DNA from: a virus
Length of the DNA: 64,000 nt
IMG/VR virus record: IMGVR_UViG_3300017987_000070
Coordinates: 1 to 64,000 of that record
Reading direction: 5' to 3' (one strand)
Of the stretch, positions 3,465-57,778 are shown one piece after another. The position numbers and the translations under genes are program-made. Under the pieces are notes generated by a model. It saw nothing but the letters and a program-made list of their open reading frames with translations, had not been told where the DNA came from and made no database searches. Positions within the stretch are counted from its first letter, which is position 1; every line of letters starts with the position of its first letter.

Positions 3465-4133
3465 GTGAGAGACAACGACTCATACATTTACCGTCGCGGC
3501 ACGACTCCCAACACACGAGTCGTCGTGAGCCAGAAGAACAAGATCTTCTCTGTCGCTCATGATAACGCCGCCTTCTCCCAGGTGGGCGTCATGTCCTCCT
3601 TCTCCGTTTCGGAGGCCCGTAGTGTCGAGCCCGTCCGTGGTATCGGTTACGGCGATCAGATTGCCGAGCTTGTCCCCGGTGTCACGGACCCCATCGGGCT
3701 CTCAATCGAGCGTCAGTTGCTCTACCTCGCGAACGCGCACCAAGTGTTCGGTTACGCAGGTGGTGTTGACGGTCTCGTGCGATCTCTGAAGCATCACCAG
3801 TGGCCGTTTGATATCAAGCACGAGCTTGTGTTCTCGCGTATCGCGACGAACGCTTCTGTTCCCAAGCAGGTCTCCCCTGCGACGGATGGCGCCAACGAGG
3901 CTCTCTTGACCTTCTTCGAGGCGTGCTGGCTCAACGACTACTCCTACGACTTCGCGGCAGACGGCGCGATGGTCGCGGAGTCGGTTTCAGCTACGGTCTC
4001 CGACATCGTAGACGGTACGAGCACCTACGGGCAGCTCGCTTCCGACGCCGAGTCCACGGGTAACAACCCATTCTCGGATGTCACGGGTGGTTCGTTCCGC
4101 TACGGTTCTGGTACCGGAGTCCCAACCTTCTGA
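3465..4133 (+). CDS. Probable tail tube protein
   Basis: At 222 aa the protein has the size and feel of a myovirus tail tube subunit: a beta-rich body with SFSVSEARSVEPVRGIG (about 44-60), IGLSIERQLLYL (about 84-95) and, near the C terminus, FEACWLNDYSYDF followed by a strand rich in Val and Ser. The start is GTG at 3465 with AGGAG about seven bases upstream. It is framed by terminators on both sides, as expected for a gene made in very high copy number as its own transcript. It lies upstream of the tape measure gene but separated from it by ten genes, which is unusual. I infer tube rather than sheath from size; a sheath gene is not seen in the window. Confidence 0.65.
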   Translation: MRDNDSYIYRRGTTPNTRVVVSQKNKIFSVAHDNAAFSQVGVMSSFSVSEARSVEPVRGIGYGDQIAELVPGVTDPIGLSIERQLLYLANAHQVFGYAGGVDGLVRSLKHHQWPFDIKHELVFSRIATNASVPKQVSPATDGANEALLTFFEACWLNDYSYDFAADGAMVAESVSATVSDIVDGTSTYGQLASDAESTGNNPFSDVTGGSFRYGSGTGVPTF

Positions 4134-4162: not shown

Positions 4163-4196
4163 GGGGGATAGGAATGTCCTATCCCCCCTTCTTTTT
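4163..4196 (+). terminator. Rho-independent terminator after tail tube gene
   Basis: The stem GGGGGATAGGA (4163-4173) pairs with TCCTATCCCCC (4177-4187) around an ATG triloop and is followed by TTCTTTTT. The GGAG ribosome site of the next gene starts at the base after the T-run, so transcripts that read through carry the next gene's start region directly behind the hairpin. Confidence 0.9.
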
Positions 4197-4290
4197 GGAG
4201 CCTTACATGAACAAGCTAGCCAAACAACTGATCAAGCTCGGACATACGAATCCTGAACTTCGAGACCATCTTCGCCCTGTGTTGGATAAG
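4188..4290 (+). repeat. Duplicated ribosome site plus N-terminal module, copy 1
   Basis: This stretch, from the T-rich leader and GGAGCC ribosome site through the first 28 codons, is closely similar at the DNA level to 5140-5242. Both read ATGAACAAGCT then CTTCGAGACCA then CTGTGTTGGAT. Similarity fades after the module, so the leader and N-terminal tag were duplicated as a unit onto two different proteins. Confidence 0.85.
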
Positions 4291-5130
4291 ATCGCCGCGC
4301 GGGTAGACTTTGGTGCTGTAGATTGGTATGAAACTTGGGCGGAGGGTTTTGAACGCTCTACAAGTGGTTTAGAATCTTTGGTCCGTCAAGTCAAAGGTGT
4401 CGAAGACCTTTCGTTCGACATCAACTGGAATAAGCATTACATGCTAATCGAGGTAGATACCTCTCTAGTTTCACCTTCCAAGGGAGGTAGACCTCATAGC
4501 TTTGATCTGTATGTAGCTTGGTATGATAAGAAGCCAGAGGTACTTACCGTAGAACTAGAGGGTGCAAAGGACATTTCCCTGCCGCTAGATTTGAAACGCT
4601 ACGTCAAACCGGGTTCAGACCCGGATTGGGATGGAGTTGCTGATCATGTGGATGACGTTCTCTACAAGAACTTCAAAAAGGTTTTGACGAAGGCTTTAAG
4701 CTCTGAAGCCAAGAAACACAAGCTGGTCACACAAGCTGAGTACGATAAGATGGTAGCCGAGAAGGAGAAAGCCGAATCGCCTGCCCAAGAGAAAAAAGAG
4801 CGTGCTAAATCAGCCCCAAGTATTGAGAAGCTTGTTCCTGCTCTTAAGGAAGCTCTCCGCAAGGATCGTAACATCTATGTAAACGGAATCGACCTCCCCG
4901 GTAAAGGTCGTGCTGAAAGAAATGAGATCCTCGTGGATTTCTATGACGAGAGAGTACCAGACCTCTTTGACGATCCCAATTTTTATTCAGCGGTTGACCG
5001 TGCCAACGAGGCCGTTGAGAAGCTTCTGAAAGCCGAGCTGCGACCCTTCAAGTCTATGATCACTAAGATGAACATCGAAGGGGACATGGATGACGCCAAC
5101 AGGTTTCTTCTCGCAATCAAGTTGAAGTGA
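4207..5130 (+). CDS. Hypothetical protein with LIKLG..NPELR N-terminal module
   Basis: The 307-residue protein opens with MNKLAKQLIKLGHTNPELR and HLRPVL, the module shared with the two genes that follow and with one at 56723-57778. The rest is a soluble alpha/beta body, a Lys/Glu-rich linker near residues 185-210, and a C-terminal domain of about 90 residues; I recognise neither. The ATG at 4207 is chosen over an upstream in-frame start because of GGAG at 4197-4200 and because the module begins there. The gene is somewhat AT-richer than the baseplate genes. The tag suggests a virion or virion-associated protein, but this is inference. Confidence 0.85.
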   Translation: MNKLAKQLIKLGHTNPELRDHLRPVLDKIAARVDFGAVDWYETWAEGFERSTSGLESLVRQVKGVEDLSFDINWNKHYMLIEVDTSLVSPSKGGRPHSFDLYVAWYDKKPEVLTVELEGAKDISLPLDLKRYVKPGSDPDWDGVADHVDDVLYKNFKKVLTKALSSEAKKHKLVTQAEYDKMVAEKEKAESPAQEKKERAKSAPSIEKLVPALKEALRKDRNIYVNGIDLPGKGRAERNEILVDFYDERVPDLFDDPNFYSAVDRANEAVEKLLKAELRPFKSMITKMNIEGDMDDANRFLLAIKLK

Positions 5131-5139
5131 CCCACTTAC

Positions 5140-5242
5140 CCTCATTTTGGAGCCTACCATGAACAAGCTCGCAACACAACTCATTCGTCTGGGACATGAG
5201 CATCCTGACCTTCGAGACCACCTTCGTCCTGTGTTGGATGAG
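5140..5242 (+). repeat. Duplicated ribosome site plus N-terminal module, copy 2
   Basis: Second copy of the leader and N-terminal module described at 4188-4290, exactly 952 bases downstream and colinear with no gaps between the two ATGs and the shared GTGTTGGAT. Confidence 0.85.
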
Positions 5243-5650
5243 GTCCTCAAGGTGTCGAGTCAGGGTCTCAAGCTCAATGACCTCAAGCTCAACTCTTCGA
5301 CGCGCACGAAGGTAAACACTTGGATGGCTCGCTTCGATCATGATGCCCCTGCGGCAGAGATGGCCGGAGGGAGGGGGTACTTCCCGGCGAACACTGGAGG
5401 TATCTTCCAGAACGCCTCTCGCCCCATGAACCTGGGTGACTTCCGAGACACCGTGGCTATGGGCAATAACACCATCCTCTTCGGCGTCGCGAGTCATGAC
5501 CGTCGTGGGCAGAGGTTCGGGCGCGGCTTTCTGACGACCATGCCTAGCTTCGACGCGGCGAACCTCGCTCGCCAAGGCATCGAGTGTGTTCGGGTTGACG
5601 ACGTTCACCACCTCTGGTACTGTTACATTCCGTTCACTTACGGCTCTTGA
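5159..5650 (+). CDS. Hypothetical protein with LIRLG N-terminal module, 163 aa
   Basis: The protein begins MNKLATQLIRLGHEHPDLR followed by HLRPVLDEV, the same module as its neighbours. The remaining 130 residues are unrelated to theirs: a compact, Gly- and aromatic-containing body with the C-terminal strand VDDVHHLWYCYIPFTYG. No family is recognised. The start at 5159 is set by TTTTGGAGCC just upstream, matching the 4207 gene. The stop overlaps a possible upstream start of the next gene. Confidence 0.82.
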   Translation: MNKLATQLIRLGHEHPDLRDHLRPVLDEVLKVSSQGLKLNDLKLNSSTRTKVNTWMARFDHDAPAAEMAGGRGYFPANTGGIFQNASRPMNLGDFRDTVAMGNNTILFGVASHDRRGQRFGRGFLTTMPSFDAANLARQGIECVRVDDVHHLWYCYIPFTYGS

Positions 5651-5661
5651 GGGAATACCTC

Positions 5662-6726
5662 ATGGACAAACTGTCAAATAAACTCATCAAACTCGGGTAC
5701 ACGAACCCTGAGCTTCGCCCGCACCTCCGAACCCTCTTGAAAAATCTCGATCGTCAAGATACCCATATCCGAGATAGATCGGACAAGATCGCTGGAGGTA
5801 AGATTGAGCCTCTAGGTTTTGACCCTTCAGGGCGCCCTATGTACCTGCACGAGCAGGTGTTCGGCAAGAATAGCTACGTGCGTGACCTCCAGAAGCGCTC
5901 AATCGATCGTAAATACAATTTAGCTATTCGGCACGCAACAAATGGCAGTCTGGCCGAAACCTTGGGCAAGACTCTTAGGCGCAAACTGGAAGGGATATTC
6001 GAAGCAGAGCCAGAGAGCACGCGTGGCGCGGTAATTGACGAGGGTGATGAGGACGGTCAGGCGTGGGCTCGTCTCGTACTGAGGCTTCCCAACACAAACC
6101 TAAAGCTATCTCGGTCCAAGGCCCACACCTTTGCTGTGATTATCGCACAAACCTATTCGGTGGATAAGGTTTGTGTGGCTCAACTCGACGACCTTTCGGA
6201 GTACAATGGCGATCTCTATCTGGAGATTTCATGGTGGGGAGCGATCTGGGACGAAGACCTCGTGAGCTACTACCGTGAGGAAATGGAGCGCAAGCGCAGG
6301 GAAGAAGAGGAGAAAGAGCGTCTCCGTCTTGAGAAAGAGAAGGCTCGTGAAGAGGAAGAGCGCCGTAAGAAGGACCCTGCCTACATTCGGGGCCAGATCA
6401 TGTCTGAACTCGAATACGCCTTGAAAAGTCTGGACTCGGGGAGAGGACGTTACGTTAGTAGTCCCACTCTCGAAGGGAGCTTCATCTATGGAAGCTACCG
6501 CTCCAACCTCGACGAAGACGGTAGTGAGTATGACGACTACTACGAAGACGAGGATGGTGACGATCCGGGCGAGTCCAACTCCTATGAGGAGGCCGTTTCT
6601 TTCGAGGAGGAACGTGCGGAAGAGCGCATAATGAACTACCTTAAAGAGTACGAAAAGCACATCAAAGGCGTTTTTGTTGAGCAAGGCGACAAGAACTACA
6701 TGGAAGTAACCGTGACTCTTAAGTGA
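5662..6726 (+). CDS. Hypothetical protein with LIKLG..NPELR N-terminal module, 354 aa
   Basis: The N terminus reads MDKLSNKLIKLGYTNPELR then PHLRTLL. A globular part follows, then a long charged helix near residues 210-240 (repeated KRREEEEKER-type sequence), which should form a coiled coil or single alpha helix. A C-terminal domain of about 110 residues contains a very acidic loop (DEDGSEYDDYYEDEDGDD). The C-terminal domain ends in a strand, NYMEVTVTLK, resembling the end of the 4207 protein (ANRFLLAIKLK). GAGGG at 5649 supports the ATG at 5662. Function unknown. It is the last gene before a strong terminator. Confidence 0.85.
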   Translation: MDKLSNKLIKLGYTNPELRPHLRTLLKNLDRQDTHIRDRSDKIAGGKIEPLGFDPSGRPMYLHEQVFGKNSYVRDLQKRSIDRKYNLAIRHATNGSLAETLGKTLRRKLEGIFEAEPESTRGAVIDEGDEDGQAWARLVLRLPNTNLKLSRSKAHTFAVIIAQTYSVDKVCVAQLDDLSEYNGDLYLEISWWGAIWDEDLVSYYREEMERKRREEEEKERLRLEKEKAREEEERRKKDPAYIRGQIMSELEYALKSLDSGRGRYVSSPTLEGSFIYGSYRSNLDEDGSEYDDYYEDEDGDDPGESNSYEEAVSFEEERAEERIMNYLKEYEKHIKGVFVEQGDKNYMEVTVTLK

Positions 6727-6750
6727 GGCTCACGTACAGTTAGAGCAGAG

Positions 6751-6785
6751 GCCCCCGGAACACACTCCGGGGGCTTTTCTTTTTG
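6751..6785 (+). terminator. Rho-independent terminator
   Basis: A GC-rich stem GCCCCCGGA (6751-6759) pairs with TCCGGGGGC (6766-6774) around a six-base loop and is followed by TTTTCTTTTT. It closes the 4207-6726 gene group. Confidence 0.95.
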
Positions 6786-6835
6786 TGTAGACCTCAAAGT
6801 GAATGACTAGCTGATTCCATCCAAGAGGCTCTACC

Positions 6836-8827
6836 ATGTTCATTACAGCAAACGTGCCCAAGAAGTACGAGCACATTGACTTCAAACCACCCCAAGGCGT
6901 AGCCGACGCTGCCGAGCGTGGTCTTGAACTCCGCAAAGAGCAATCTGGCGACAAGGCGGGTCTTACGGCTGAAGAGGCCAGTGAGCAGGGCATTGGGTCT
7001 GGAGTCCAGCGCGCCACGAACCTGAAGAACCGCACCAACGTGTCCCCCGAAGTCATCGGGCAGATGGTAGGGTTCTTCGCGCGTCACGGCAAGAACATTG
7101 CCAAGGCTCGTAAGCTCACGACCCAGGAGGAGCAGCTCAAGTCCAACATGTACGTGAGTGACTTGCTCTGGGGAGGTGAGCCCGGCGAGCGGTGGGCCAA
7201 TAAGGTCAAGGAGCAGATGGAAGCCGCAGACGAGAAGGAGAAGAACGCTTCTCTTGCCTCCAGAGTCGCAAGCAGGTACCTCATGGCAGGGAAGCTTGAG
7301 CCGCCTCCCGTCATGTATGCCAAGGCCCTGAAGTGGTTCCAGGGACGTATCGCGCGCCGTATGGAAGATATCATAGACCTTGAGCGCGATAAAGTGCAGG
7401 CTCCAGACCCCTCGTCTCAGTACGAAGACGCGCCCATGTCTTCTATGGAGATCAAGATCGCGGTGAACGAACTCCTCAAGCTCAAAGCCATGTTCAGGGA
7501 CATGGGTAATGAGGATATGATCTATCAAAGAGAGGAGACGATCGATACGTCCCAGGGTCCGCTCAAGGTGAAGCTCTTACCCTCCAATGAAGCTCTGCTG
7601 TCTTACGGGCCGGACACCTTGACGACTCCCCTGGACGACTTCAGGTTCCAGCAAACAGTGGGTCCTTGGATTCGCAAGACGGGCATCACTTCTCGCCGCG
7701 TTTCCAGGGACTACCAAGACAAGATGCGTCGCTACGAAGGAGAGAACCTGACCTACGAGCAACGTGAAGCGAGGCTCAGGGAGCTTTCTGAAGTCGAGGC
7801 AATGTTCCGCCCCTGGAAGGGTAACGATCGTGGCATTGACAACCCTCTGGACGTGGAACTCGACGGGTGGTATCGAGAACTCGACGAGTTCACCTTCAAA
7901 GACCTCCCTCCCCTTTCAATGAAACTGACCCTCTCCAGGGGTGAGATGAACGGAGGTTTCATCTCGGTGTCGGATGACCCTCTAGTCATGATTGACATGC
8001 CCAATGACGTAAGCACTCGTCCGGGCGCTCGTGAGTTGGTCTCCAAGCTCGAAGATCTCCTGCGTCACGAGATGCGTCACTACGCTCAATACCTGTTCCG
8101 TTTGTATCGTGACATCGAAGAGAGAGGTTCCATGTACGGGAATGAGGTCGGACTACCGCACTCTCTCCGTACCCTGGAGTACGATACCATCGTAGCCGAT
8201 GAGATCACTGAACTCCGAAGGTATCTCAAGCATGTCCCCGGAGACCTGCACCCCGTGGTGTTCAAAGCCTGGACCCACGCCTTGACCTCCAGGGACAGGG
8301 ACGACCTCAAGAGGTATATGGTATGGATCAAGCAGAACCCTCGACACGCCATGCCTTCCCGCTTTACGGGCGCTCCTATTGACCCCACACAGGGACGCGA
8401 GTTTTTCCGTCTCATGAAAGATCACGATCACACCAAGTGGAAACGAGCGGTCAAGACCCTGGCTCGTAACGTGAAGATGGGTAAGACCGCGCAAAGGGCA
8501 GCTAACGTCGTGCGTCGTCTCCTCGCGGAGAAGCTGCCTCACATCGCTCGCGTTGACCCCAAGTTCGCGTATGACCTCTACCGTCAGGAAGACCTCAACA
8601 GGGGCAACAACAGCTCCAGGCGAGACTATCCGACCACGGATCTCATGTCTCGTAAGGTCCTCAAGAGCCTCGACGAGAGGATTGAAGCGTTGTCGGACAA
8701 GATCGAACGCTACCAAGACCAGGGCGTGGACCACTCGGGCCTCTGGGATGATCGTGAAGACCTCATGCGTGAGCGCGAGGACATCACCCGCTTCCTCAAA
8801 GATACGCTGGGCTTCAAGGGGAAGTAA
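6836..8827 (+). CDS. Mosaic protein: conserved phage N-terminal domain plus HExxH metallopeptidase
   Basis: Residues 15-130 carry a pattern I associate with many phage proteins: FKPPQGVADAAERGLELR, GIGSGVQRA, VSPEVIGQMVGFFARHGKN and LLWGGEPGERWA. A short helix SRVASRYLMAG (141-151) links this to the rest. A zinc-peptidase motif, HEMRH at 411-415, lies in a helix (DLLRHEMRHYAQYLF), with Glu residues downstream (ADEITEL) that could supply the third ligand. The C-terminal 120 residues are helical and charged, with another region KTAQRAANVVRRLLAE. A virion-associated protease or a modified fold is likely. The product may process other virion proteins, but the target is unknown. The next gene follows after two bases. 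Confidence 0.82.
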   Translation: MFITANVPKKYEHIDFKPPQGVADAAERGLELRKEQSGDKAGLTAEEASEQGIGSGVQRATNLKNRTNVSPEVIGQMVGFFARHGKNIAKARKLTTQEEQLKSNMYVSDLLWGGEPGERWANKVKEQMEAADEKEKNASLASRVASRYLMAGKLEPPPVMYAKALKWFQGRIARRMEDIIDLERDKVQAPDPSSQYEDAPMSSMEIKIAVNELLKLKAMFRDMGNEDMIYQREETIDTSQGPLKVKLLPSNEALLSYGPDTLTTPLDDFRFQQTVGPWIRKTGITSRRVSRDYQDKMRRYEGENLTYEQREARLRELSEVEAMFRPWKGNDRGIDNPLDVELDGWYRELDEFTFKDLPPLSMKLTLSRGEMNGGFISVSDDPLVMIDMPNDVSTRPGARELVSKLEDLLRHEMRHYAQYLFRLYRDIEERGSMYGNEVGLPHSLRTLEYDTIVADEITELRRYLKHVPGDLHPVVFKAWTHALTSRDRDDLKRYMVWIKQNPRHAMPSRFTGAPIDPTQGREFFRLMKDHDHTKWKRAVKTLARNVKMGKTAQRAANVVRRLLAEKLPHIARVDPKFAYDLYRQEDLNRGNNSSRRDYPTTDLMSRKVLKSLDERIEALSDKIERYQDQGVDHSGLWDDREDLMREREDITRFLKDTLGFKGK

Positions 8828-8829
8828 AC

Positions 8830-9705
8830 ATGCCCAAGACGCACTACAAGCTGGACCGATCAGACGCCTCCAGACGCGCGTATCGGGACGCAGAGCGCGA
8901 GTTGGAGGAAGCCAAGGCGTATGGGTTCATTACGTGGAAAGAACTCCACATCGTACCTCTCAGGGAGATTGAACCCCAAAAGGTGTGGAACCCTCCCCGT
9001 ATCGAGCGCATCCGTGAGGGGATAGAGCGTGGGGTAGCCCTCCCTGCGGTGTCTCTAGCTCGAAACGAGGGTGGTCGTTACAAATACAGCATCTCGGACG
9101 GCATTCATCGCTACAATGCTTCAGTGGAAGCGGGGTTCACTCATATCCCCGCCATGATCACCTTCTCCAAGGAGACGCCCGAACTCTTGGAGGAGCCCAA
9201 GGTCTTCCAAGAGGGTACTTACGTTCGCTTCAAGAGGCCCATAGACGGCTTCGAGGTTGGATACCTCGTGGAGAACATCTTCGGGGATGTCTTCGTGACA
9301 GTCGCAGGCAATGCGACGGACGCCGAGTGGATAGGCGACATCCCTGCTAGCAGCTTCGAGGAGGAGATTGACCCTCCCCGTCAAATCAAAGAGAAAATTC
9401 AAGGACACTGGTTCATGCAAAAAACCTCTTCCCGTATCGCCTCGACCTACCTCTCCCACATGCTTCGTGATCGCACGGCAAAAAACCTACCCAAGAAGGT
9501 CGAGGAGTACGTCAAGAAATTCGAGGACGAGGGCAAAGACCCAGGGTACTCTTACGCGCTGGCTTGGAGCATCTACTGCAAGCATAAGAACCCCGACTCG
9601 CCTCACTGCATGGCAGACAGTTACCTAGACAATCAGGGTAAGAAGTCGACTCAAGACCTCTCCCAAGCGGTACTCAGGCGCTATCTGGAGAACCTGAATG
9701 ACTGA
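8830..9705 (+). CDS. Mosaic protein: ParB-like domain with small C-terminal phage domain
   Basis: Residues 38-112 match the ParB/sulfiredoxin-like fold: IVPLREIEPQKVW, then ISDGIHRYNASVEAGFTHIP, where DGIHRYNA corresponds to the DGhHR motif. A small beta-rich part (about 125-185) may be SH3-like. A linker helix SRIASTYLSHM (201-211) precedes LPKKVEEYVKKFEDEGKD and YALAWSIYCKHKNPDSPHC, a short domain I associate with large phages; its role is unknown. ParB-like domains can bind nucleotides or cut DNA; which applies here cannot be told. It overlaps the next gene by eight bases. Confidence 0.82.
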   Translation: MPKTHYKLDRSDASRRAYRDAERELEEAKAYGFITWKELHIVPLREIEPQKVWNPPRIERIREGIERGVALPAVSLARNEGGRYKYSISDGIHRYNASVEAGFTHIPAMITFSKETPELLEEPKVFQEGTYVRFKRPIDGFEVGYLVENIFGDVFVTVAGNATDAEWIGDIPASSFEEEIDPPRQIKEKIQGHWFMQKTSSRIASTYLSHMLRDRTAKNLPKKVEEYVKKFEDEGKDPGYSYALAWSIYCKHKNPDSPHCMADSYLDNQGKKSTQDLSQAVLRRYLENLND

Positions 9706-10477
9706 CATCGCATACCACGTCACCTACGCTCGGAACCTCGAAGGTATAGGCTCGTCTGGGCTCGTACCCGGCAGAGGTTCTAACTTCGGTGGAGCCTACC
9801 GAGGGCACTCTTCAGGGCGCATCTTCCTGTGCGACTTCAAGTCTGTCAAGTTTTGGATTGGCAAACTGTGGGACATGGCAGAGGCCAACTCGGATACGCC
9901 GCTTGAAGACGGCTTGATTCCCATCGCGCTCAAGGTCAAGGTGCCCCGAGGGATGGAGCTTCAGGTAGACGAGGCCGGGTCCAGAGACTCACGAGGCGAA
10001 GCCTACTTCGTCGAGGACACGATCCCGGCGAGTAACATCCTCCATTGGGACGGTTCCTCTTATAGTCCAGTGTCAGGGGCAGATGTAGAGTACCTCATTG
10101 ATGTAGCCAAAGACAACTCAGAACTCGAAGACTACGGTGACGGTGAGGTCTTCTACGACTTCGGATACGGAGATCATTTCATGCCCAGACAAGCCACAAT
10201 GGCCCAAAGAGTCGCTACCCGTGTTATGACGGATCAGATGGCCTCACGTGTCGCATCTCGCGTTCTCGTAGCCGAAAACAAGCCCACCAATCCTGACCTT
10301 TGGGAGAAGGTTCAAGAGCTTGTACGGGGCGACCGTAAGAGCCTCTCAGTAGGTGACAAGACCTACGAGTCTCCTAATGACGGCAAGGGCTTCAAGAAAC
10401 ACCCCAGCGCTTACTCGAATGGTTTTGCAGTTAAGGTTTACAATGATCTCGGCGGCGGCTGGAAAGCAAAGGACTGA
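9698..10477 (+). CDS. Mosaic protein: ADP-ribosyltransferase-like domain plus small conserved domain
   Basis: The N terminus reads IAYHVTYARNLEGIGSSGLVP and later GRIFLCDF, a pattern of the ADP-ribosyltransferase-like fold (H at the NAD pocket, then a strand and a GL.P turn). No catalytic Glu can be assigned with confidence, although the EAYFVEDTIP strand is a candidate. Two basic helices follow, QRVATRVM and SRVASRVLVAE (about 169-190). The C-terminal 65 residues (NPDLWEKVQELV, then HPSAYSNGFAVKVYNDLGGGW) resemble a small domain I recall from large phages and giant viruses. A role in modifying host proteins or in the virion is possible. The next gene starts four bases on. Confidence 0.7.
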   Translation: MTDIAYHVTYARNLEGIGSSGLVPGRGSNFGGAYRGHSSGRIFLCDFKSVKFWIGKLWDMAEANSDTPLEDGLIPIALKVKVPRGMELQVDEAGSRDSRGEAYFVEDTIPASNILHWDGSSYSPVSGADVEYLIDVAKDNSELEDYGDGEVFYDFGYGDHFMPRQATMAQRVATRVMTDQMASRVASRVLVAENKPTNPDLWEKVQELVRGDRKSLSVGDKTYESPNDGKGFKKHPSAYSNGFAVKVYNDLGGGWKAKD

Positions 10478-10480
10478 ACC

Positions 10481-12145
10481 ATGACTCGATACATCCACTT
10501 CACTGATATGTCCGGTGCGAAGGCAATCCGCCACTCGGGTACCCTCATGGCGTCGTCTTTCATCAGCGGCGTGTACGCGGTCAAGGAAGGTTCTCCCTTC
10601 GTTCCCGGCGTACAGCAGACCACTCTAGGTCGCGCCAAGAACCGCAAGGTCGCAGTAGTCTTCACGACCCCCATCAAGCCCGACTACTGCGACCCGGAAG
10701 AGTGCGTCTGGAGGTTGGATGAGATCCCGGTCAAGGTCGAGCGCGTCATGCTGGCCTCTCAAGCGGTCAAAGACTACCTTCAGGTGGTCAAGGAAGCTCG
10801 CACGCCCTATGCCCTGGGTCTCCCAGGTGGCCCCTGCCACATCATCAGGGATGTGGAAGCAGAGAAGCTCCCCGAGCGCGTCAAGCAGGAACTCATCGAA
10901 GACATCGAAAAGGGTAAGGACCTCTCGAACTCGGCAGCGGACTTGATCTATCCTCCGCAGAGGTTCAACGCCAAGGCAGACCTTTTCTCGAAGGTCCTCC
11001 TCACCTCCCACGCTCAGTACCGTATGAACCTCCGTGGGATTACGCTCCCCGAGATTCAGGACGTGTTCGTCGAGTTCGACAAGTGGTACAAGGCTCGCGC
11101 CAAGAAGCCCAAGAGCCTCACCGGCGAACAGCGCAAGCTCATGACAGACCTCGCGTATGGAGAAGCTGCGAGGTTTGAGGGCAGCAGGTCAGGGATCACC
11201 ATCGTGTTTGCGGTAGACTCTCGTAAGAACGAAGCTCGCCTCGTCTCGTGTTGGTGGACGAACTCTCCCAAGACCCCCAAGCCCACTCCAGGGCAGTGTG
11301 ACTTCGTTCCGTATCTGGACAAGGATCGCAGCTTCGAGAGGCCCTCCATCCTGGGGCACACGCTCATGAAAGACATCGCCCACAAGGTCGCCCGCCGCGT
11401 ATGGTTCACGAGCCGTCAAGCTGCCAAGCCCGGTCCCGACCCGGACAAGGGAGATGGCTTGAACACTTGGTTCTCCGACAAAGCCAAAGGGGGCGATTGG
11501 GTTGCCATTTCTCCGGTCAAGAAGACCATTGAGAAGGAGGACGGCACCAAGAAGACCTTCGAGCCCGGTGACATCGTAGGCCCATGCGGTGACCCTGATG
11601 GAGAGTGGAAAGACCTCACCAACGACGGAGATGATCCCCTCAAGTGCCTGAACAAGAGCAGGGCTCAAGGTATGAGCAAGAAAGAGCGCGCCGAGGCTGC
11701 GAAGGCTAAAAAGCGTGAGGAGAAGAAGGCTCCCGAGGGCCAGAAGCCCACGCATGTCGACACGAAGCAAGATAAGAAGTCTCATGAGATCGCTAAAGCC
11801 GTGGCACGCCGTCTGTTTTCTCAAATGCAGCGCACCTCAAAAAAGACCTATCGAGACCTTCTAAATGAAAACGAAGTCTCGGAAATCCAAAGACTTCTGG
11901 GCATTGCTCGTAATAACTTGGATGTTTACCAAGCGACAGATACTTTGGATAGGAATGACCTCCAGTCAAGGGAAGTCCTGAGCGTTCTCGAAGAGGTTAC
12001 AGGCTCAGCCGCCTTGTTTGAGGTTGACCGGGGTCGTATGCATCACGACCTCGTAGACCACATGAATACCTGGGAGAAGATCTGTAAGGCTGCTCGTTTC
12101 GACTGGAAAGCTAGCTACCAAAAAACGTTGGACATCTTTTCCTGA
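10481..12145 (+). CDS. Mosaic multidomain protein: ART-like, DUF4258-like and DUF5872-like parts
   Basis: At least four parts can be seen. Residues 1-110 (YIHFTDMSGAKAIRHSGTL, then GVYAVKEG) resemble an ADP-ribosyltransferase-like or related fold. Residues 177-270 (SHAQYRMNLRGITLPEIQDV, then FEGSRSGITIVFAVD) look DUF4258-like. Residues about 330-420 (GLNTWFSDKAKGGDWVAIS, GPCGDPDGEW, KCLNKSRAQGMSKKERAE) resemble DUF5872, a module shared by large phages and giant viruses. RVAxR-type helices occur before it (HKVARRVWF, about 299) and after it (KAVARRLFSQM, about 440). The last 100 residues are AT-richer and may be a later addition. Function unknown; the domain names are motif-based guesses. Confidence 0.72.
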   Translation: MTRYIHFTDMSGAKAIRHSGTLMASSFISGVYAVKEGSPFVPGVQQTTLGRAKNRKVAVVFTTPIKPDYCDPEECVWRLDEIPVKVERVMLASQAVKDYLQVVKEARTPYALGLPGGPCHIIRDVEAEKLPERVKQELIEDIEKGKDLSNSAADLIYPPQRFNAKADLFSKVLLTSHAQYRMNLRGITLPEIQDVFVEFDKWYKARAKKPKSLTGEQRKLMTDLAYGEAARFEGSRSGITIVFAVDSRKNEARLVSCWWTNSPKTPKPTPGQCDFVPYLDKDRSFERPSILGHTLMKDIAHKVARRVWFTSRQAAKPGPDPDKGDGLNTWFSDKAKGGDWVAISPVKKTIEKEDGTKKTFEPGDIVGPCGDPDGEWKDLTNDGDDPLKCLNKSRAQGMSKKERAEAAKAKKREEKKAPEGQKPTHVDTKQDKKSHEIAKAVARRLFSQMQRTSKKTYRDLLNENEVSEIQRLLGIARNNLDVYQATDTLDRNDLQSREVLSVLEEVTGSAALFEVDRGRMHHDLVDHMNTWEKICKAARFDWKASYQKTLDIFS

Positions 12146-12160: not shown

Positions 12161-12820
12161 ATGGCCTATTCAAAAGAGATTCAGAAGCATTTGGACAAGA
12201 GGAACCTATTATCGAAGGGTACGTGGACTGCCCCGAACAAGCTCCGTCTCAGGAGCATCTGGCAGGAGATGTGGTTCATGCTTCCCTTCCTGGCATTCGT
12301 GACCTTGGTGACCGTGGGGTTCTTCTCGGCGGCAGCGGCTCAAGGTGCGCTTGGGGTTCTCCTGGGGTTCTTCGGGGGATGTTGGGCTCTCGGCGTATGG
12401 GGGGCAATCTGGCATGGTCACCTACACTGGAAGCCCTTCTATGAGGTCCTGGGGGTATACGTTCGTTTTGACGGTCCCGAGTGGTATGTCCCGCCCGAGA
12501 TCATGCAGGCGTTCCTCCAAGAGATCGCAGACAAGTGGGACGAAGCAGGTGTCGTGGACTTCCCTGCCGTGCAGTTGCTTGAAGGCTCACATCTGTACCT
12601 CGTTGAAGAGCGTCCGGTAGACCCCCTGGGTAGGATTGAGCATGAGCGCATGGTCGGGTTGACCTACCCTTCCAAGCAACAGTCTTACGTCTACGCTCCG
12701 TATGCTCTCTCGCATGGAGGCGCTGGGTACGAACTCCGCCTGCAAATGGTACACATTTTGTTCCCTTACCGCTCAGAGCAAGATGACATTGAGTGGTTCG
12801 AAGAGAACGATGTGCTCTGA
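12161..12820 (+). CDS. Membrane protein with cytoplasmic or periplasmic C-terminal domain
   Basis: After about 30 polar residues come two close hydrophobic segments, MLPFLAFVTLVTVGFF and ALGVLLGFFGGCWALGVWGAIW (about 44-90). A soluble domain of about 125 residues follows, with the features VYVRFDGPEWYVPPEIMQAF and YVYAPYALSHGGAGYELRL. I do not recognise the family. It lies between the mosaic proteins and the tail-assembly genes and is closed by a terminator, so it may be co-transcribed with the former. A role in envelope modification, lysis or DNA entry is possible but not shown. Confidence 0.82.
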   Translation: MAYSKEIQKHLDKRNLLSKGTWTAPNKLRLRSIWQEMWFMLPFLAFVTLVTVGFFSAAAAQGALGVLLGFFGGCWALGVWGAIWHGHLHWKPFYEVLGVYVRFDGPEWYVPPEIMQAFLQEIADKWDEAGVVDFPAVQLLEGSHLYLVEERPVDPLGRIEHERMVGLTYPSKQQSYVYAPYALSHGGAGYELRLQMVHILFPYRSEQDDIEWFEENDVL

Positions 12821-12842
12821 CCTTATCTCATAGAGACCTTTG

Positions 12843-12877
12843 GACCCTCGGCATTCGTGTCGGGGGTCTTTTGTTTA
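12843..12877 (+). terminator. Rho-independent terminator with UUCG loop
   Basis: GACCCTCGGCA (12843-12853) pairs with TGTCGGGGGTC (12858-12868), two of the pairs being G-U, around a TTCG tetraloop, and TTTTGTTT follows. It separates the membrane protein gene from the tail-assembly genes. Confidence 0.9.
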
Positions 12878-12935
12878 TCCTGAGATTCCATTTATCCCGA
12901 AGGATCAGTGCTTCATCCTCTCACGGCTTCGACTC

Positions 12936-12957
12936 GTGCTGGAAACCCTTCCAGCAC
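12936..12957 (+). promoter_or_regulatory. Hairpin in the 5' leader of the tail-assembly gene
   Basis: GTGCTGGAA pairs with TTCCAGCAC around an ACCC loop, and TCGAC/GTCGA lie on either side (12928-12932 and 12964-12968), so the stem could extend across an internal loop. No T-run follows, so it is not a terminator. It ends 34 bases before the ATG at 12992 and may stabilise the mRNA or shape translation. Confidence 0.5.
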
Positions 12958-12991
12958 AGGAAGGTCGAGTTACATCCAAAAAGGTACAGCT

Positions 12992-14056
12992 ATGTCTACA
13001 CTCAAGCTCTCCTCGATTCGTAAGGGCATGTCCAAGCTTAGGAGGCTTGGGCACGAAACCGACACGTTCACGGTCCTGGGTATCGAGTTCCAGATCCGAA
13101 CCATCACCCGCCACGAGCTTACCATCGCGAACGAGCGCGCACAACCTCTCTTCGAGCAGGCTCAGGAAAGCGATGACTCGTATACTCTCGCTAACTGGCT
13201 AAAGACCGTCCAGCTTGGAGTCCTGTCCTTTGCGATCATGCGTATCGACGATATGGACTTCAACGGGCAGGAGTATATCCTTGACGATACCAACCCCGCC
13301 GACCCGGAGACGGTAGAGAAGGCCCTCTTCGTACACACACTCTTGGATGAGTGGGAGGACAGTCTCATCAGCGTGCTCTACCGTAAGTTCCAAGAGCTTA
13401 CCCAGCAAGCCGAAGAGAAGGCAACCAAGGGCGTCAAGTTCCTCTCAGAGTCCCCCGAGGAAGAGTTGGCGGAATTGGAGGAGCAGGTGGCGGGTCTCCG
13501 TAGCAAGCTCGGGCTCCCCCCTCTGGTTCCCGCGACTCAAGCGACGACCTCCGAGCCCGTAAGAGCCGAATCCGTGCCACAGGGGTCTCCTTCGGCAGAC
13601 GTTGACGTGAGGGAACTCAAGACTCAAATGCTCCAGCCGGTACCCCAGGATGCGCTTCAGCAACCGCCCGTCGTCGAGAGAGACGGGTACCACTACGAAC
13701 TACCCCAGGAACAAGCATCTCAGACGGCCTCAGAGCCCTCACAAGACGACGAAGTGCAGCGGGAGCATGAGAGGCTATACCAAGAGCGTCAAGAGCGTCA
13801 GCGTGGACGTGAGCCCTTGAACCAAGCTCCTATCCAAGTGTACTCGGAGCCCTCGCCTCAAGATAGCCCTGTGAGGACGGCTAATGCCCCTCAGCAGATG
13901 ACGGATGCTCAGTACATCCCGAACCCGAACGGGGCTACTCTCTTGAGTCCTGCGACGCAGCAGCAAGAGACTCAGCAAGGTCCCGCGTTCAAGGCCAATC
14001 AGAAGCCAAGCGGCAAGGGCAACCCCAACTTCTATAACCCAAACCGCAGGCAGTGA
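12992..14056 (+). CDS. Probable tail assembly chaperone, first gene
   Basis: The gene lies two places before the tape measure gene, the usual place of tail assembly chaperones. The N-terminal 180 residues form a compact domain (FTVLGIEFQIRTITRHEL, then WLKTVQLGVLSFAIMRIDD, then LDEWEDSLISVLYRKFQEL) like other phage tail chaperones; a short coiled coil follows and then about 190 residues rich in Gln, Pro and Ser, likely disordered. Chaperones of this kind bind the tape measure during tail assembly. The start at 12992 is preferred to an in-frame codon at 12908 because AAAGG lies close upstream and the hairpin leader lies between. No frameshift site links it to the next gene. Confidence 0.6.
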   Translation: MSTLKLSSIRKGMSKLRRLGHETDTFTVLGIEFQIRTITRHELTIANERAQPLFEQAQESDDSYTLANWLKTVQLGVLSFAIMRIDDMDFNGQEYILDDTNPADPETVEKALFVHTLLDEWEDSLISVLYRKFQELTQQAEEKATKGVKFLSESPEEELAELEEQVAGLRSKLGLPPLVPATQATTSEPVRAESVPQGSPSADVDVRELKTQMLQPVPQDALQQPPVVERDGYHYELPQEQASQTASEPSQDDEVQREHERLYQERQERQRGREPLNQAPIQVYSEPSPQDSPVRTANAPQQMTDAQYIPNPNGATLLSPATQQQETQQGPAFKANQKPSGKGNPNFYNPNRRQ

Positions 14057-14071
14057 CCGGGGGAGGTAGCA

Positions 14072-15244
14072 ATGGCTCTCCCAGACTACACCGACGTTGA
14101 GCGCATGATCTTCAGGGGCTTCCTTGTCGAAGCCGTCGAAGTAGAAGGTGTACCCATCATCTTCAAGACGGTCAACGAGACCGAATACGACCTCGCTCTA
14201 CTCTATTCGGTCAGCTCCGATTCCGCCAAGGAGAATCTCCTTCAAGAGTGCTACTTCATAGCCTCTTCGGTATATTTGTTCAACCGGGTTTCGGTTCTTG
14301 ACGACAGGGAGACCTTCTTTCATGAGTTCGTCGACGTGCTCATGGAATACTCTCCCGAGGTCCGTCTTGAACTCCTACGCAAGATTCAGGGACTCAATGC
14401 GCGCGCGCTCAAAGCCATCAAGCGCGTTGAAGGGTTCTCTTATGGACAAGATTCGAGGCAAATGTGGTCTATTGTCCACCGTATGTCTCCAAACGACCCC
14501 AGGGTCACAGGTATCCAGGGGACGCAGTGCTTGGGTCTCAACGCCCACCAACGCCTCTGGTACCACTACAATCTACTCGAAGACAAGCGAGAGGAAGTCG
14601 AGACGGACTGGGCTCACACCAAGTTCGCCGCTTCGGTTCACTCGAAAGAGATCAGCAAGATCGATTCTCAAGACAAGACGCGCCGCAGAGACGAGCAGCG
14701 CAGACGTGAGGCCATCTTCTACGGAGAGATCCCTGAAGAAGGGACACGTGGTGTCAATGGGGAGGTCAAGGTGTCACACGAGAGCGTGGACGACCTTCTG
14801 GGTCAGTTGAAGCGTGACATCGAGGGTCAGAAAGACTTCCACGATCAGGTGGTCGAAGCTCATGAGCGTAAGGTCCGCGAGCAGTGGGAGAAGGCTCAAG
14901 CCGCGAAAGCAGAGCGCGCTTTGAGGGCTCGTCAAGCCAAGCGGGAGCAGTTCAGCCCTGATGTCGAAGATCCAATCATATTCTATGATGAGGAAGCTGT
15001 CAAGAGGTTGACTCAGGAGCGTAAGCAAGCCAAGCGCACGGCGCTCTTACGTGGCGACTTCGAGGCAGAAGGGAAGTATCAGGAGCAAACTGAGAGGATG
15101 AGGAAGTGGGGCATTATAGGAACGGAAGACCCTGAACCTACCCAGGATCAAGGGACGCATCCTCTCTCGGGCACCATCATGGACGACTACTACGATGTCC
15201 AGATGCCGGATATGACCAACAGATCCCCTTTTGACGATGAGTGA
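14072..15244 (+). CDS. Probable tail assembly chaperone or tape-measure partner, second gene
   Basis: This 390-residue protein directly precedes the tape measure gene. The N-terminal 200 residues are helical (YTDVERMIFRGFLVEAVEVE, then LLRKIQGLNARALKAIKRVE, and a GTQCLGLNAHQRLWYHYN segment). The central part, about 200-330, is a charged coiled coil (RRRDEQRRREAIFY, then KREQ and ERKQAKR). The end is Pro/Asp-rich. A GGGGGAGG ribosome site supports the ATG. With its neighbour it resembles the two-gene chaperone arrangement of other myoviruses, here as two separate genes rather than a frameshift product. The exact role is inferred from position. Confidence 0.55.
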   Translation: MALPDYTDVERMIFRGFLVEAVEVEGVPIIFKTVNETEYDLALLYSVSSDSAKENLLQECYFIASSVYLFNRVSVLDDRETFFHEFVDVLMEYSPEVRLELLRKIQGLNARALKAIKRVEGFSYGQDSRQMWSIVHRMSPNDPRVTGIQGTQCLGLNAHQRLWYHYNLLEDKREEVETDWAHTKFAASVHSKEISKIDSQDKTRRRDEQRRREAIFYGEIPEEGTRGVNGEVKVSHESVDDLLGQLKRDIEGQKDFHDQVVEAHERKVREQWEKAQAAKAERALRARQAKREQFSPDVEDPIIFYDEEAVKRLTQERKQAKRTALLRGDFEAEGKYQEQTERMRKWGIIGTEDPEPTQDQGTHPLSGTIMDDYYDVQMPDMTNRSPFDDE

Positions 15245-15249
15245 GCTTC

Positions 15250-18200: not shown

Positions 18201-18642
18201 CAGGGTGGCTCGTATGATGGTTGAATCTGGTATGACTGCCGGGGATAAGGATGTGTCATCTTTGCTCGGGGCGGACCTTAGTTCTGCACAGAAAGAAGCT
18301 CTCAAGTCGGAGAGGGCCTACGACTCCAAGCTGTTAAAACAGCAATTTGAGGGAGTTAAGAAGAGGCTCCTCCCCGCTCAGGACGCCAAGATCCTCTCGG
18401 GAGGATTTGCACCCCTGGCGTTCTCGCCCGGCGATCTGGTGATCAAGGAGAGCGCCATCGCCCGTACCCAGAGAGGAGGTCCCGGTTCCATGCTCAAGGC
18501 TCTCGGTGGAGCTGCCGGAGGTGGTGGCGGTGGAGGTACGGTCAACTTCAACGTGACCGTGAACAACCCGCAGCAAGGCGACGTGCAGGAAGAGATTCTT
18601 CGCGCCTACGAGATGATCAAACGTAAAGAGATGGGAGGCTGA
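15250..18642 (+). CDS. Tail tape measure protein
   Basis: The long helical protein (1,130 aa) spans the tail lumen and sets tail length. It has a coiled-coil N-terminal part (about 20-165), a Gly-rich loop, a hydrophobic segment near residue 240 (LGPLAIAVGGLGAIVKLLM), a long helical middle and a Gly-rich tract near the C terminus (GGAAGGGGGGG) before TVNFNVTVNNPQ, a typical tape-measure ending. At roughly 0.15 nm per residue the tail would be about 170 nm. The upstream gene ends at 15244; a GTG at 15241 would overlap it, but the ATG at 15250 (MADEEFDF) is the more natural start. Start choice changes only three residues. Confidence 0.88.
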   Translation: MADEEFDFLLHVDDNIGDTLLRLGNLSKGLDQAKKELEGLATVSKKNKKAFTDLELGVANLVDVSTEAVKAAHYGHTFKDAAKDVEGLVGKVKDLRAVHAEALDAQTKGQEELAKQKTAEYKERFKMISQEKKAVLDSMSAQSKKLKKIFVDDKKKLDEFADKKLPDTLGKGIGNAIKSALGGDLQGVIGGLGQSAGGLGQLGAGRIRNKSQQRALRRQMAGKGKGGIPGGGKAMAALGKFAKVLGPLAIAVGGLGAIVKLLMDAEAQTKELNSELLNQVPYYTLAQDGFEGANDRLSQMREVATDFSRNMRLGMDPKMHYEVIGALQEHNANLMTLEEGYADFGAMAADVIETVRQTSLNMGTSLSETAGFVAELRDIHGQSMDVIKSDLQLMVTLSREAGISTKKFFGTIAQLSGQMGLYNFKLEEAAGLLTQMNKIMDSKSAEAFTTQMVTGLKEQNAQERLKTIILAGQGKVTKMLRETSQDMLTDIVKVDKGFGGINAQLAAMGYEGVTNAKELGKRLKELRKDGEYQELMFRVNRNVSEEAGRQLSMAGKMAQDVEKGGLRLVDALGNLGAMDNVEVQIEMLENIFGPIEDIPVIMAEQLGFSEAQLKQMQRFSEISQGQADLLFDQLKRVDASDEDQRKDFNAFAKQMGINAKLQEDGTLINAETKQIIKDEYDVTRAMTSEAKDRAKKSAKSQKSAAEKQIDATRKVSDILQLLVYQALNSISFAVEGIYGFMRKVFGKSESKSEQMARGVRNRQAEIRNLRSRRMQSTDPLEKARLSEEISRKEADLKPLEGKLAMQRRMDAEMALAKSEGRSQQGYQEYRKFLEGGGDMTFKDFQGLKSKSVSQAQESLDFRKRKYNSLLDPNVYVDPEGKNLTGTQVAKKTNEKASEIFEEELSAHKTISEEGNAIQSEIRDKISEGMYTQAQKAVITNDILKNRGININTEAAKKFRDAQVEALQIAEMTKRLGGAFGGSAGRVARMMVESGMTAGDKDVSSLLGADLSSAQKEALKSERAYDSKLLKQQFEGVKKRLLPAQDAKILSGGFAPLAFSPGDLVIKESAIARTQRGGPGSMLKALGGAAGGGGGGGTVNFNVTVNNPQQGDVQEEILRAYEMIKRKEMGG

Positions 18643-26221: not shown

Positions 26222-26245
26222 TCTGACCCTCTACAGGTGCTTCAC

Positions 26246-29884: not shown

Positions 29885-30340
29885 ATGCTCACACTTGCTT
29901 CACAGCTACTACACGTCGCGAAAGACTTCCCCGAGTTCTCCGAAGACTTGGACCCTCTCATCGCGAACGTAATCTATACCCAAAGCAAGAGGGAGGCCCA
30001 AGTCAAGACGGCGGGCACCAAGCTCAAGGACATCATGGGAGGCAAGTCTATCCTGGGACTGAAGAAGAGCGTGGCCCACCGTATCGAGCGTCAGCTCAGG
30101 ATGTATGGGCTCGACGCAGACTCGGCAGCGATCCTTCTGGGGTCAAGAGAGATCAAGATCGTCATTACGGCGAGCATCACGGACCCTGATGAAGATCCTT
30201 ATACCGACTTTGCGGCGAACTACATCGCTCAGGAGATTGTTATGGATCTCCAGCGGTCCCTTGCGTACAAGGTCACCGGGAAAGGTCGGTACTCCACGTT
30301 CACCGACTCGGTAGTAATCACCCTCTTTCAGAAAGTCTAA
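29885..30340 (+). CDS. Hypothetical protein, 151 aa, with weak N-terminal module
   Basis: The protein opens MLTLASQLLHVAKDFPEFSE then DLDPLIANV, a diverged form of the LIKLG..NPELR..LRP module found elsewhere in the window (L..A, P-E, L.P spacing kept). The rest is an alpha/beta domain (IKIVITASITDPDEDP, then VVITLFQKV). ATG 29885 is preferred to the in-frame ATG 29870 because GGAAAG lies seven bases upstream and the module begins there; the other start would overlap the upstream gene. Function unknown. Confidence 0.75.
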   Translation: MLTLASQLLHVAKDFPEFSEDLDPLIANVIYTQSKREAQVKTAGTKLKDIMGGKSILGLKKSVAHRIERQLRMYGLDADSAAILLGSREIKIVITASITDPDEDPYTDFAANYIAQEIVMDLQRSLAYKVTGKGRYSTFTDSVVITLFQKV

Positions 30341-55937: not shown

Positions 55938-56723
55938 TCAGATCTTGAGAGCCTTGCTCACCTGAGTGTAGCCCTGATTGTAAAGGTCAAGGGCTTCCTC
56001 ACGGTTCATGAGCAAGTTCGCGCCGCTCTTGGTGGTCTTGACCCGTATCGTCCTGGCGAACACGGCATCTTCCATGTGCTCTTTGTCGATAGCTCCCATC
56101 ATCGTGCCCAGAACTGCGAACCCGTAGTCGAGTAGAGACTCCACGGGCTTCCTCTCTGGGTCAGAGACGACCTTGATTCCGATCACGTCTTCACCTGACC
56201 CGAAGATGTCCAGTGGGAACCCCACCGCGACGCCTCCGTCTACATAACGCGCGCCTTCTATCTCGACGGGAGTGAACGCGAAGGGTACCGACATGGAAGC
56301 TCTCACCGCCAAGGGCAAATCGGCATCGGGGGTATCATGTGAGGAGAACACCACGCTCTCTTGCGTGTCAATGTTCACGGTCCCTACGTGCAGAGGTATG
56401 ACCGTATGCCCGAAGGTACGTGACATCTCCTGACGGAAGACGTCAAGGAAGGCGTGACCTTTGATCAAGCCCCAGGATAAGGGAGGGAACCACGACGGAT
56501 CGATGAGACCGAGGTTGTCCCCCGGAGCCGTATCCAAGATCACCTGCTTGATGTCCTCTGAGGACTTCCCAGAAGCCACGAGAGCGGCGATGATACTCCC
56601 ACCCGATACCCCGGCTATCTCCTCTATCTCAAAGCTCTCTGTGAGCCTGGAAATGGCTCCAGCGTGAAGGGGATACAGAAGCCCAGAACCGGAAAGCACG
56701 ACTTTGATTTTGGGTTTGCTCAT
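55938..56723 (-). CDS. Patatin-like phospholipase
   Basis: The 261-residue protein has a patatin core: an oxyanion-type loop LSGSGLLYPLHAGA (10-23), the nucleophile elbow GVSGGS (Ser40) and the acid YVDGGVAVGFP (Asp162). These match the Ser-Asp dyad of patatin-family acyl hydrolases, which cleave membrane phospholipids. No signal peptide is seen. It overlaps the preceding gene on the strand by one base (TGATG). In a phage this may help lysis, alter host membranes, or travel in the virion; which cannot be told here. Its upstream neighbour carries the LIKLG module. Confidence 0.88.
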   Translation of the reverse strand: MSKPKIKVVLSGSGLLYPLHAGAISRLTESFEIEEIAGVSGGSIIAALVASGKSSEDIKQVILDTAPGDNLGLIDPSWFPPLSWGLIKGHAFLDVFRQEMSRTFGHTVIPLHVGTVNIDTQESVVFSSHDTPDADLPLAVRASMSVPFAFTPVEIEGARYVDGGVAVGFPLDIFGSGEDVIGIKVVSDPERKPVESLLDYGFAVLGTMMGAIDKEHMEDAVFARTIRVKTTKSGANLLMNREEALDLYNQGYTQVSKALKI

Positions 56724-57778
56724 CAGGCTCTCCCTCTCATGATGTCATAGAGCAGATCGTTGATTTTGCGCACTATCTTGAAGACATGGCGGTTCCCCGT
56801 AAGGTACCCGTCCTCGTCGTCGGTTCGAGGCCAGTCGAAGACTTCTACGCTCTCGTGCTCGTAGCCGTTGCCTTCCACTATAATCTCAAAACGGATGTTC
56901 GTATCATCTTCTCTCACGGGCATCATAGTTACGAGGTAGTGGCCTTGTCGTCCCTCGTGGGCATCGCGACCGAAGCTACCCCGGACTTCAGGAGCACCTC
57001 CGGCCATACTGGACACGCTAGCAGGTCCGTCAAACATGCCTCCCATCCCGCGCGCGAACTCGGCGTACATCTCTTCGACGGGTAGGGGCTCTCCTTCAAG
57101 CTTATCGTAACTCACTACAACGTGAGGATGCTTGGCGAGGAACGCTTCTACCTCAGCCTTTTGAATCTGAGGGTTCCCTTCCACGTAAAGATAGCTTGGA
57201 ATGACCTTGAGCTTCAAGAGCGTGCCCTTGGGCATGTTCCGGTCCTCAAAGCTCAACGAACCCAGGTTGGGGGCGAAGTTGTTAGCTACCCAAAGCGCCT
57301 CCTCGTTGGTCAGAGCTACCTTTCCCAAGACCAAATTGATGATACCCTGGTTCGCTTTGGTCCCGAGTAAGACTTTACGTGCGAGGGCTTTGTTTTTAGA
57401 CAGGGACGAGAATGGTAGGCTTCGGTCATTGTATACCTTGGCGAATTCAATCTTGTACCTTGATGCAGGCTTATCGTAGGTTCTCAAGGTGAGAGGCCCC
57501 ATTGTGCGTACCTCATCGGGGAACTTATCCAACGCTCGATGCACGTAAGGGACGACCTGATTCTCGGTACGAGCACGATCAATCGCATCCATCTCCACCA
57601 CGACCCTGAGTACCTGCTTGTACGTGCGGAGGTCTTTCTTGCCGTTGAGCACAGAGCGGAGTTCGCCAAAGAGCCGGTTGAAGTCGTCGTTGGCGATCAA
57701 CACTCGTAGGTGCGGTCTAAGTTGAGGGTGAATCTTTCCGAGCTTTATAAGATTATATCTAAACTTATCTTCAGTCAT
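56723..57778 (-). CDS. Hypothetical protein with LIKLG..HPQLR N-terminal module, 351 aa
   Basis: The protein starts MTEDKFRYNLIKLGKIHPQL then RPHLRVLI, the same module as the genes at 4207-6726 on the other strand. The rest is an alpha/beta body with a Gly/Met-rich loop (about 255-280), a strand-rich part with YLVTMMPVREDDTNIRFEII, and a helical end KIVRKINDLLYDIMRG, whose final strands recall the C-terminal domain of the 5662 protein. The ATG at 57778 is favoured over an upstream in-frame codon (57793) by GAGGG just upstream. Its stop overlaps the patatin start. The function is unknown. Confidence 0.82.
   Translation of the reverse strand: MTEDKFRYNLIKLGKIHPQLRPHLRVLIANDDFNRLFGELRSVLNGKKDLRTYKQVLRVVVEMDAIDRARTENQVVPYVHRALDKFPDEVRTMGPLTLRTYDKPASRYKIEFAKVYNDRSLPFSSLSKNKALARKVLLGTKANQGIINLVLGKVALTNEEALWVANNFAPNLGSLSFEDRNMPKGTLLKLKVIPSYLYVEGNPQIQKAEVEAFLAKHPHVVVSYDKLEGEPLPVEEMYAEFARGMGGMFDGPASVSSMAGGAPEVRGSFGRDAHEGRQGHYLVTMMPVREDDTNIRFEIIVEGNGYEHESVEVFDWPRTDDEDGYLTGNRHVFKIVRKINDLLYDIMRGRA

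Follow-up and report, generated by a model that had tools for sequence, protein, structure and literature searches.

Short targeting elements as such are already known, both from T4 capsids and from bacterial microcompartments. In phage T4, the capsid targeting sequence (CTS) is common to otherwise divergent internal proteins, and Alt and the internal proteins are packaged (PMC9026906). Polyvalent proteins are likewise predicted to be packaged and injected (PMC5512222, Iyer et al. 2017). Here we describe a new pair of protein tags from large phages, hereafter tag A and tag B, and compare them with these systems.

The source contig is an IMG/VR virus of 85,796 bp, and the window, that is, the whole stretch of DNA that was analysed, comprises its first 64 kb. 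A preliminary description of the window had noticed that several proteins with different bodies begin with the same short module. The source contig bears this out: tag A stands at the start of four proteins, at 4207, 5159 and 5662 (+) and at 57778 (-), and a fifth copy that had not been mentioned earlier lies beyond the window, at contig positions 70721-70807 (-), on a 178-aa protein. On the other hand, the diverged copy that had been proposed at 29885 proved to be only the best sub-threshold match. The features concerned are as follows.

4163..4197, + strand: terminator-like hairpin followed by a T-run, bounding the tagged-gene island on its left
4207..4293, + strand: first tag A copy (MNKLAKQLIKLGHTNPELRDHLRPVLDKI), N-terminal in a 307-aa protein, with a GGAG ribosome-binding site
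4207..5130, + strand: tagged protein 1, body without a database match (listed ORF start, 4174)
5159..5245, + strand: second tag A copy, N-terminal in a 163-aa protein
5159..5650, + strand: tagged protein 2, body without a database match
5662..5748, + strand: third tag A copy, N-terminal in a 354-aa protein
5662..6726, + strand: tagged protein 3, no convincing database match for the body
29885..29962, + strand: diverged candidate of the preliminary description, not significant (E=2.1 with a 16-copy profile)
56723..57778, - strand: tagged protein 4; in G034, the nearest relative, the patatin homologue adjoins a tagged gene with another body
57686..57778, - strand: fourth tag A copy, N-terminal in a 351-aa protein, adjoining a patatin-like phospholipase gene

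GGAG/GAGG ribosome-binding sites are located close upstream of the tag A starts at 4207, 5159, 5662 and 57778 (-), which supports these positions as true initiation sites. For tagged protein 1, position 4207 is likely the true start rather than 4174, because the latter falls within the terminator-like hairpin (-22.9 kcal/mol, z=-3). In the window and some relatives (G008 and G032-G034), the tag takes the variant form LIKLGxxNPELRxHLRPVL. Pfam and PHROGs gave nothing convincing for the tag A proteins of the window, whose bodies have no recognisable function, and no relatives of the 4207 body emerged when proteins alone were searched.

The profile search over phage genomes that had been suggested as a check revealed a wide distribution of tag A. 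An HMM of the five copies, on which the source-contig copies score well by construction, detected 11 further copies in an independent genome, the uncultured phage LR745208.1 (485 kb), whose baseplate protein is the closest among the annotated phages (35.9% identity). In this search, a clean gap separated the real matches (E<=1e-13) from the noise (E>=2). Reading 16 large phage contigs in full yielded 130 copies on 121 ORFs, and no reversed decoy of 31,261 ORFs scored E<1 with the tag A profile. A search of IMG/VR by the profile and by DNA patterns located tag A loci in at least 53 contigs from 39 metagenomes, with a profile-supported copy within 126 of the 129 loci; all 34 contigs searched whole contain the tag, with up to 15 copies each. 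All contigs are metagenomic and many are fragmentary, and one of them, G001 (485,040 bp), is probably the same genome as LR745208.1. No copy was confirmed across 84,980 cellular genomes, and none was found in a plasmid search or among cultured phages (a 50,697-record set). Moreover, the Pfam, PHROGs and NCBIfam matches reported for the carriers included no model of the tag itself, the motif strings did not occur in the literature searched, and the profile gave only chance-level matches and one designed helical protein among PDB sequences.

The consensus of tag A is [ST]LRSKLIRLAHxNPELRPHLLPLLK(E)(A), about 24-25 residues. Its most conserved positions are R17 (97%), L9 (94%), L2 (93%) and I7, P14 and P22 (90% each), and conservation fades past helix 2. 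An AlphaFold2 model from 76 sequences (mean pLDDT 81) places helices at residues 3-14 and 16-33, so that the tag is predicted to consist of two amphipathic helices that meet at a conserved Pro and contain Arg and Leu positions that are near-invariant; a model of a tagged ART from three sequences reached a pLDDT of 37, and only the tag module model was used. Among the copies of one genome, codon positions 1-2 are identical in 85% and position 3 in 46%, and the sequence downstream agrees in 28%, which shows that the copies are old and kept by purifying selection at the protein level, rather than being fresh duplications. A third recurring piece, F(P)(S/T)(Q/E)EALDKYLK(D/E)HP.AD...H(S/T)V, often follows tag A (G006, G007, L222 and L223), and it is also seen downstream of tag B in G006|92873.

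The N-terminal placement noticed at first holds for 100 of the 130 copies in the 16 contigs; 20 others are internal and 10 are C-terminal, and some proteins have two or three copies. With about 23% of the copies (30/130) internal or C-terminal, tag A is not merely an N-terminal leader. This distribution also bears on the earlier suggestion of a protease-cleavage signal, according to which tag A would be a propeptide like the T4 CTS, removed by a prohead protease at LLKE|A after prohead entry. The T4-type protease cleaves by the rule (I/L)-X-E, which LPLLKEA resembles, and many copies of the LR745208 group read LPLLKEA. As mentioned above, the T4 CTS is likewise common to otherwise divergent internal proteins (PMC9026906). 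However, conservation ceases where helix 2 ends, E stands at the putative site in 31% of the copies and A in 48%, most copies of the window lack the site, and the C-terminal copies end the protein. In addition, no S77/S78 prohead protease (PF03420/PF04586) was matched in 13 contigs, although PF03420 also matched no control and many contigs are fragments. We consider removal as a propeptide quite unlikely.

We then considered the bodies to which tag A is joined. With the module masked, the 121 ORFs fell into 86 BLAST clusters with different folds, and most of the tagged proteins have 100-400 aa and one body. The bodies include ART-PolyVal domains (E 4e-12 and 2e-10, above the cut-off), an RNA ligase (E 2e-27), a zeta kinase (Zeta_toxin, E 5e-12), a pentapeptide-repeat protein (E 1e-22), DUF2958 (E 1e-18) and DUF5710 (E 2e-18), together with RelA_SpoT, ParBc_2 and Dps-like bodies and an LPD1 match below the cut-off. 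If the carriers were ordinary homologues, i.e., a fast-diverging family in which only the N-terminus is still recognisable, full-length alignments should reunite them. The copies are indeed frequently adjacent, and the 4207 and 5662 proteins show a faint similarity in their C-terminal halves (phmmer E=0.007 in an 11-sequence set), which may thus be very distantly related. To that extent, the view that the bodies are unrelated has to be qualified for this pair. Nevertheless, bodies as different as the ART, RNA ligase, zeta kinase, pentapeptide and Dps-like folds, as well as the internal and C-terminal copies, already contradict common descent, leaving this explanation hardly tenable.

The untagged proteins are of another kind. 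Among 116 length-matched untagged ORFs from the same contigs, the 25 of 60 families listed represent replication, repair, nucleotide, chaperone and transcription classes (RecA, RuvC, Pol III, RNR, Thy1, Cpn60, sigma and AAA), and this control set also contains one DUF5710 and two DUF5856 members. Because the E limits differ between the scans (0.01 for one tagged-body scan; 0.001 for the second and for the control), 25 of the 60 families are listed, and DUF5710 and DUF5856 occur on both sides, this is a contrast in kind and not in rate. The tags are confined to an effector-like (conflict effector) class of proteins.

Tag B, a motif around RVASRYL, was first picked by eye and afterwards subjected to decoy tests, in which it occurred 47 times versus 10 in reversed and 4 in shuffled ORFs. 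Only one of the 121 tag A proteins also contains the strict tag B pattern. Among 46 homologues of tag A bodies that lack tag A, 15 have tag B, often directly beside the body, versus 94 of 1899 other genes (Fisher p=8e-9) and 1 of 46 in the reversed control; this background, like the clustering test below, relies on simple longest-ORF gene calls, which are crude and prone to errors in G+C-rich contigs. Individual cases illustrate the exchange. One ART-PolyVal body is joined to tag A in L222 and L233, and in L041 and G006 tag B motifs occupy that position; a HExxH-containing body has an N-terminal tag B in L041 and a C-terminal tag A in G005; and in a large LR745208.1 protein with an internal tag, tag A occupies the site that holds tag B in the L217 relative. 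Thus, tags A and B are interchangeable on homologous bodies. That unrelated tags swap in place or switch ends is the strongest evidence for the tag as a functional address, as opposed to a relic of shared ancestry. Homologues of one body show, in G005|116374-117330 and G004|106836-107792, a candidate third tag, LRMAASLPAGSPQRRHIL / MIRTAAALPEGSADRRALL, at the place where a homologue has tag A and with the same helix-Pro-helix outline; its copies are too few to test and it is a lead only.

The same results weigh on the idea that the tags dock to, or oligomerise with, a common host or phage partner such as RNA polymerase or a chaperone, irrespective of localisation. A small helical hairpin with a near-invariant Arg would suit a protein-binding patch, yet docking does not easily explain why two unrelated tags replace each other on one body or why the cargo is limited to effector-type proteins, and we regard it as very unlikely.

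In the window, seven tagged genes form an island of about 8 kb inside the conserved tail operon, with three tag A genes (listed above) and four genes that have tag B or a tag-B-like motif.

4207..12145, + strand: island of seven tagged genes, between the tail genes 3465-4133 and 12161-18642
6836..8827, + strand: 663-aa protein of the same island, tag B SRVASRYL at 7259-7282
8830..9705, + strand: ParB-like-domain protein, looser tag-B-like motif SRIASTYL at 9430-9453, backed by the G034 alignment
9698..10477, + strand: 259-aa protein, tag B SRVASRVL at 10244-10267
10481..12145, + strand: 554-aa protein, loose tag-B-like motifs HKVARRVW at 11381-11404 and KAVARRLF at 11795-11818, picked by eye
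55938-56723, - strand, outside the island: gene of a patatin-like phospholipase (Pfam E 1.5e-26) that shares one base with the tagged gene 57778

The looser motifs in the genes at 8830 and 10481 were first chosen by eye, and the one at 8830 is supported by its G034 homologue, which has tag B (SKKIALRYL) near the N-terminus at the aligned place. By eye, the N-terminal parts of 9698-10477 (YHVTYARNLEGIGSSGLVPG...) and 10481-12145 (YIHFTDMSGAKAIRHSGTL...) resemble ADP-ribosyltransferase-type starts, with no Pfam match.

The island is variable among relatives. Homologues of the genes at 3465, 12908, 14072, 15241 (tape-measure-like) and 18646 are consecutive there, with only about 4, 30 and 189 bp between the 3465 and 12908 homologues in G003, G004 and G005, respectively. 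In G034, the nearest relative (baseplate 59% identical), the same gap holds only two genes besides the 12161 homologue, one of which is the 8830 homologue with its N-terminal tag B. The G034 orthologue of the fifth tagged protein (51% identical) keeps the tag, and the G034 homologue of the window gene at 1610 ends in a C-terminal tag A. Furthermore, the neighbour of the patatin-like phospholipase is a tag A gene in both the window and G034, but the two bodies have no significant similarity. Across the contigs, 28 pairs of tagged genes were neighbours where 7.9 were expected, and none of 2000 permutations exceeded 18; tag A genes adjoined tag B genes 5 times versus 4.0 expected, which is not above chance, though both kinds are present in the island of the window. 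Given the variable island, the differing bodies beside the patatin gene and this clustering, the tagged genes behave as exchangeable cargo cassettes.

Two helicases were noticed alongside. One, of the SNF2 type, is encoded among the tail genes of the window at 26237-29602 (+; PHROG 62, E 2e-29), has a homologue in G004 near 189-192 kb and is of a kind with the SWI2/SNF2 ATPases that occur in injected polyvalent proteins. The other is a UvrD-like helicase of 1703 aa at L005:7604-12715 (contig 71604-76715, -), which seems by eye to contain two in-frame intein-like insertions.

Overall, a tag that recurs on more than 100 unrelated proteins, at either end or in the middle, and swaps with a second tag is best read as a sorting address label. 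The sorting part of the earlier proposal of a sorting or packaging signal thus stands on portability, freedom of position, interchangeability and the effector class of the cargo; the virion as destination is what we infer. It is the most likely destination because the effector repertoire is known from injected polyvalent proteins and because the island lies in the tail operon. Our main reading, to which we give a probability of roughly 55%, is that tag A is a portable cargo-sorting domain that loads accessory proteins into virions for delivery with the DNA. In this mechanism, large phages would attach tag A to many unrelated accessory proteins, and tag B would perform the same job and could stand in for it. 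The tag would be bound by a receptor that the phage encodes, most likely part of the forming head or its core (or of another virion part), and the bound protein would thereby be loaded into the particle. At infection, the cargo would then enter with the DNA, including ADP-ribosyltransferases, kinases, nuclease-like, RNA-repair and nucleotide-signal enzymes and DNA mimics.

The tags might instead address an intracellular phage structure, such as a nucleus-like body, a replication site or an assembly condensate; a phage compartment had also been among the earlier suggestions. Portable terminal helices drive assembly and condensation of bacterial microcompartments (PMC12339742), and the two or three tags on some proteins would fit an adaptor or a condensate scaffold. 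However, a phiKZ-type chimallin (gp54) had no credible match in 12 contigs by a single-sequence search, in which distant homologues or missing sequence are possible, and replication and recombination proteins are untagged among the 25 of 60 control families listed. Since replication enzymes are required inside such a nucleus, their lack of a tag, together with the missing chimallin match, disfavours a phage nucleus, and we consider an intracellular destination unlikely.

Loading into the virion, as preferred here, can be extended tentatively, with a confidence that stops short of even, to a two-tag address code of huge phages. Tag A or tag B anywhere in a protein would direct it to the virion, the effectors would arrive with the DNA as separate proteins, with no polyvalent fusion, and multi-tag proteins would bridge cargo as adaptors. 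If this holds, the injected effectors of phages not yet culturable, amounting to hundreds of unannotated proteins, could be listed from the tag alone; it would offer a handle to load chosen proteins into large phage particles; and it would explain how huge phages can keep many early effectors as separate proteins, which in other phages are fused. With two independent and mutually substituting tags, the sorting hypothesis is directly testable.

Finally, the tags can be set against the known systems. The propeptides of head and ejection proteins of phiKZ and SPN3US are, like most tag A copies, N-terminal extensions on proteins of giant phages, which are packaged there (PMC10052503), but they mostly have 111-254 residues and are cut after A-X-E, whereas tag A is short and sits on other kinds of proteins. 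The encapsulation peptides of bacterial microcompartments resemble it by description, with no sequence similarity claimed: they join a terminal amphipathic helix through a poorly conserved linker to unrelated cargo (PMC12339742), and tag A shows the same design of short amphipathic helices, a variable linker and unrelated cargo in its logo and helix-helix model. They differ in serving a cellular organelle and in being a single helix of about 18 residues. The T4 CTS (internal proteins IPI-III and Alt) is like tag A a short element common to otherwise divergent proteins, and the cargo of both includes an ADP-ribosyltransferase (Alt in T4; ART-PolyVal here). The CTS has about 10 residues, is N-terminal and is removed by gp21; tag A has about 24 residues in two helices, occurs also internally and C-terminally, apparently has no strict cleavage site and swaps with a second tag. 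Membership in the T4 type was rejected, as 30 of 130 copies depart from the strict N-terminal position. With the polyvalent proteins, the tagged set shares a repertoire of ART-PolyVal, LPD1, RelA/SpoT and ParB-type domains, and among the effectors of injected phage proteins it includes ART-PolyVal, LPD1 (below the cut-off), RelA_SpoT, ParBc_2 and the zeta kinase. In polyvalent proteins, many domains are combined into a single large chain, whereas the tagged proteins are separate and mostly small, with one body in most cases, as if the tag had replaced fusion.
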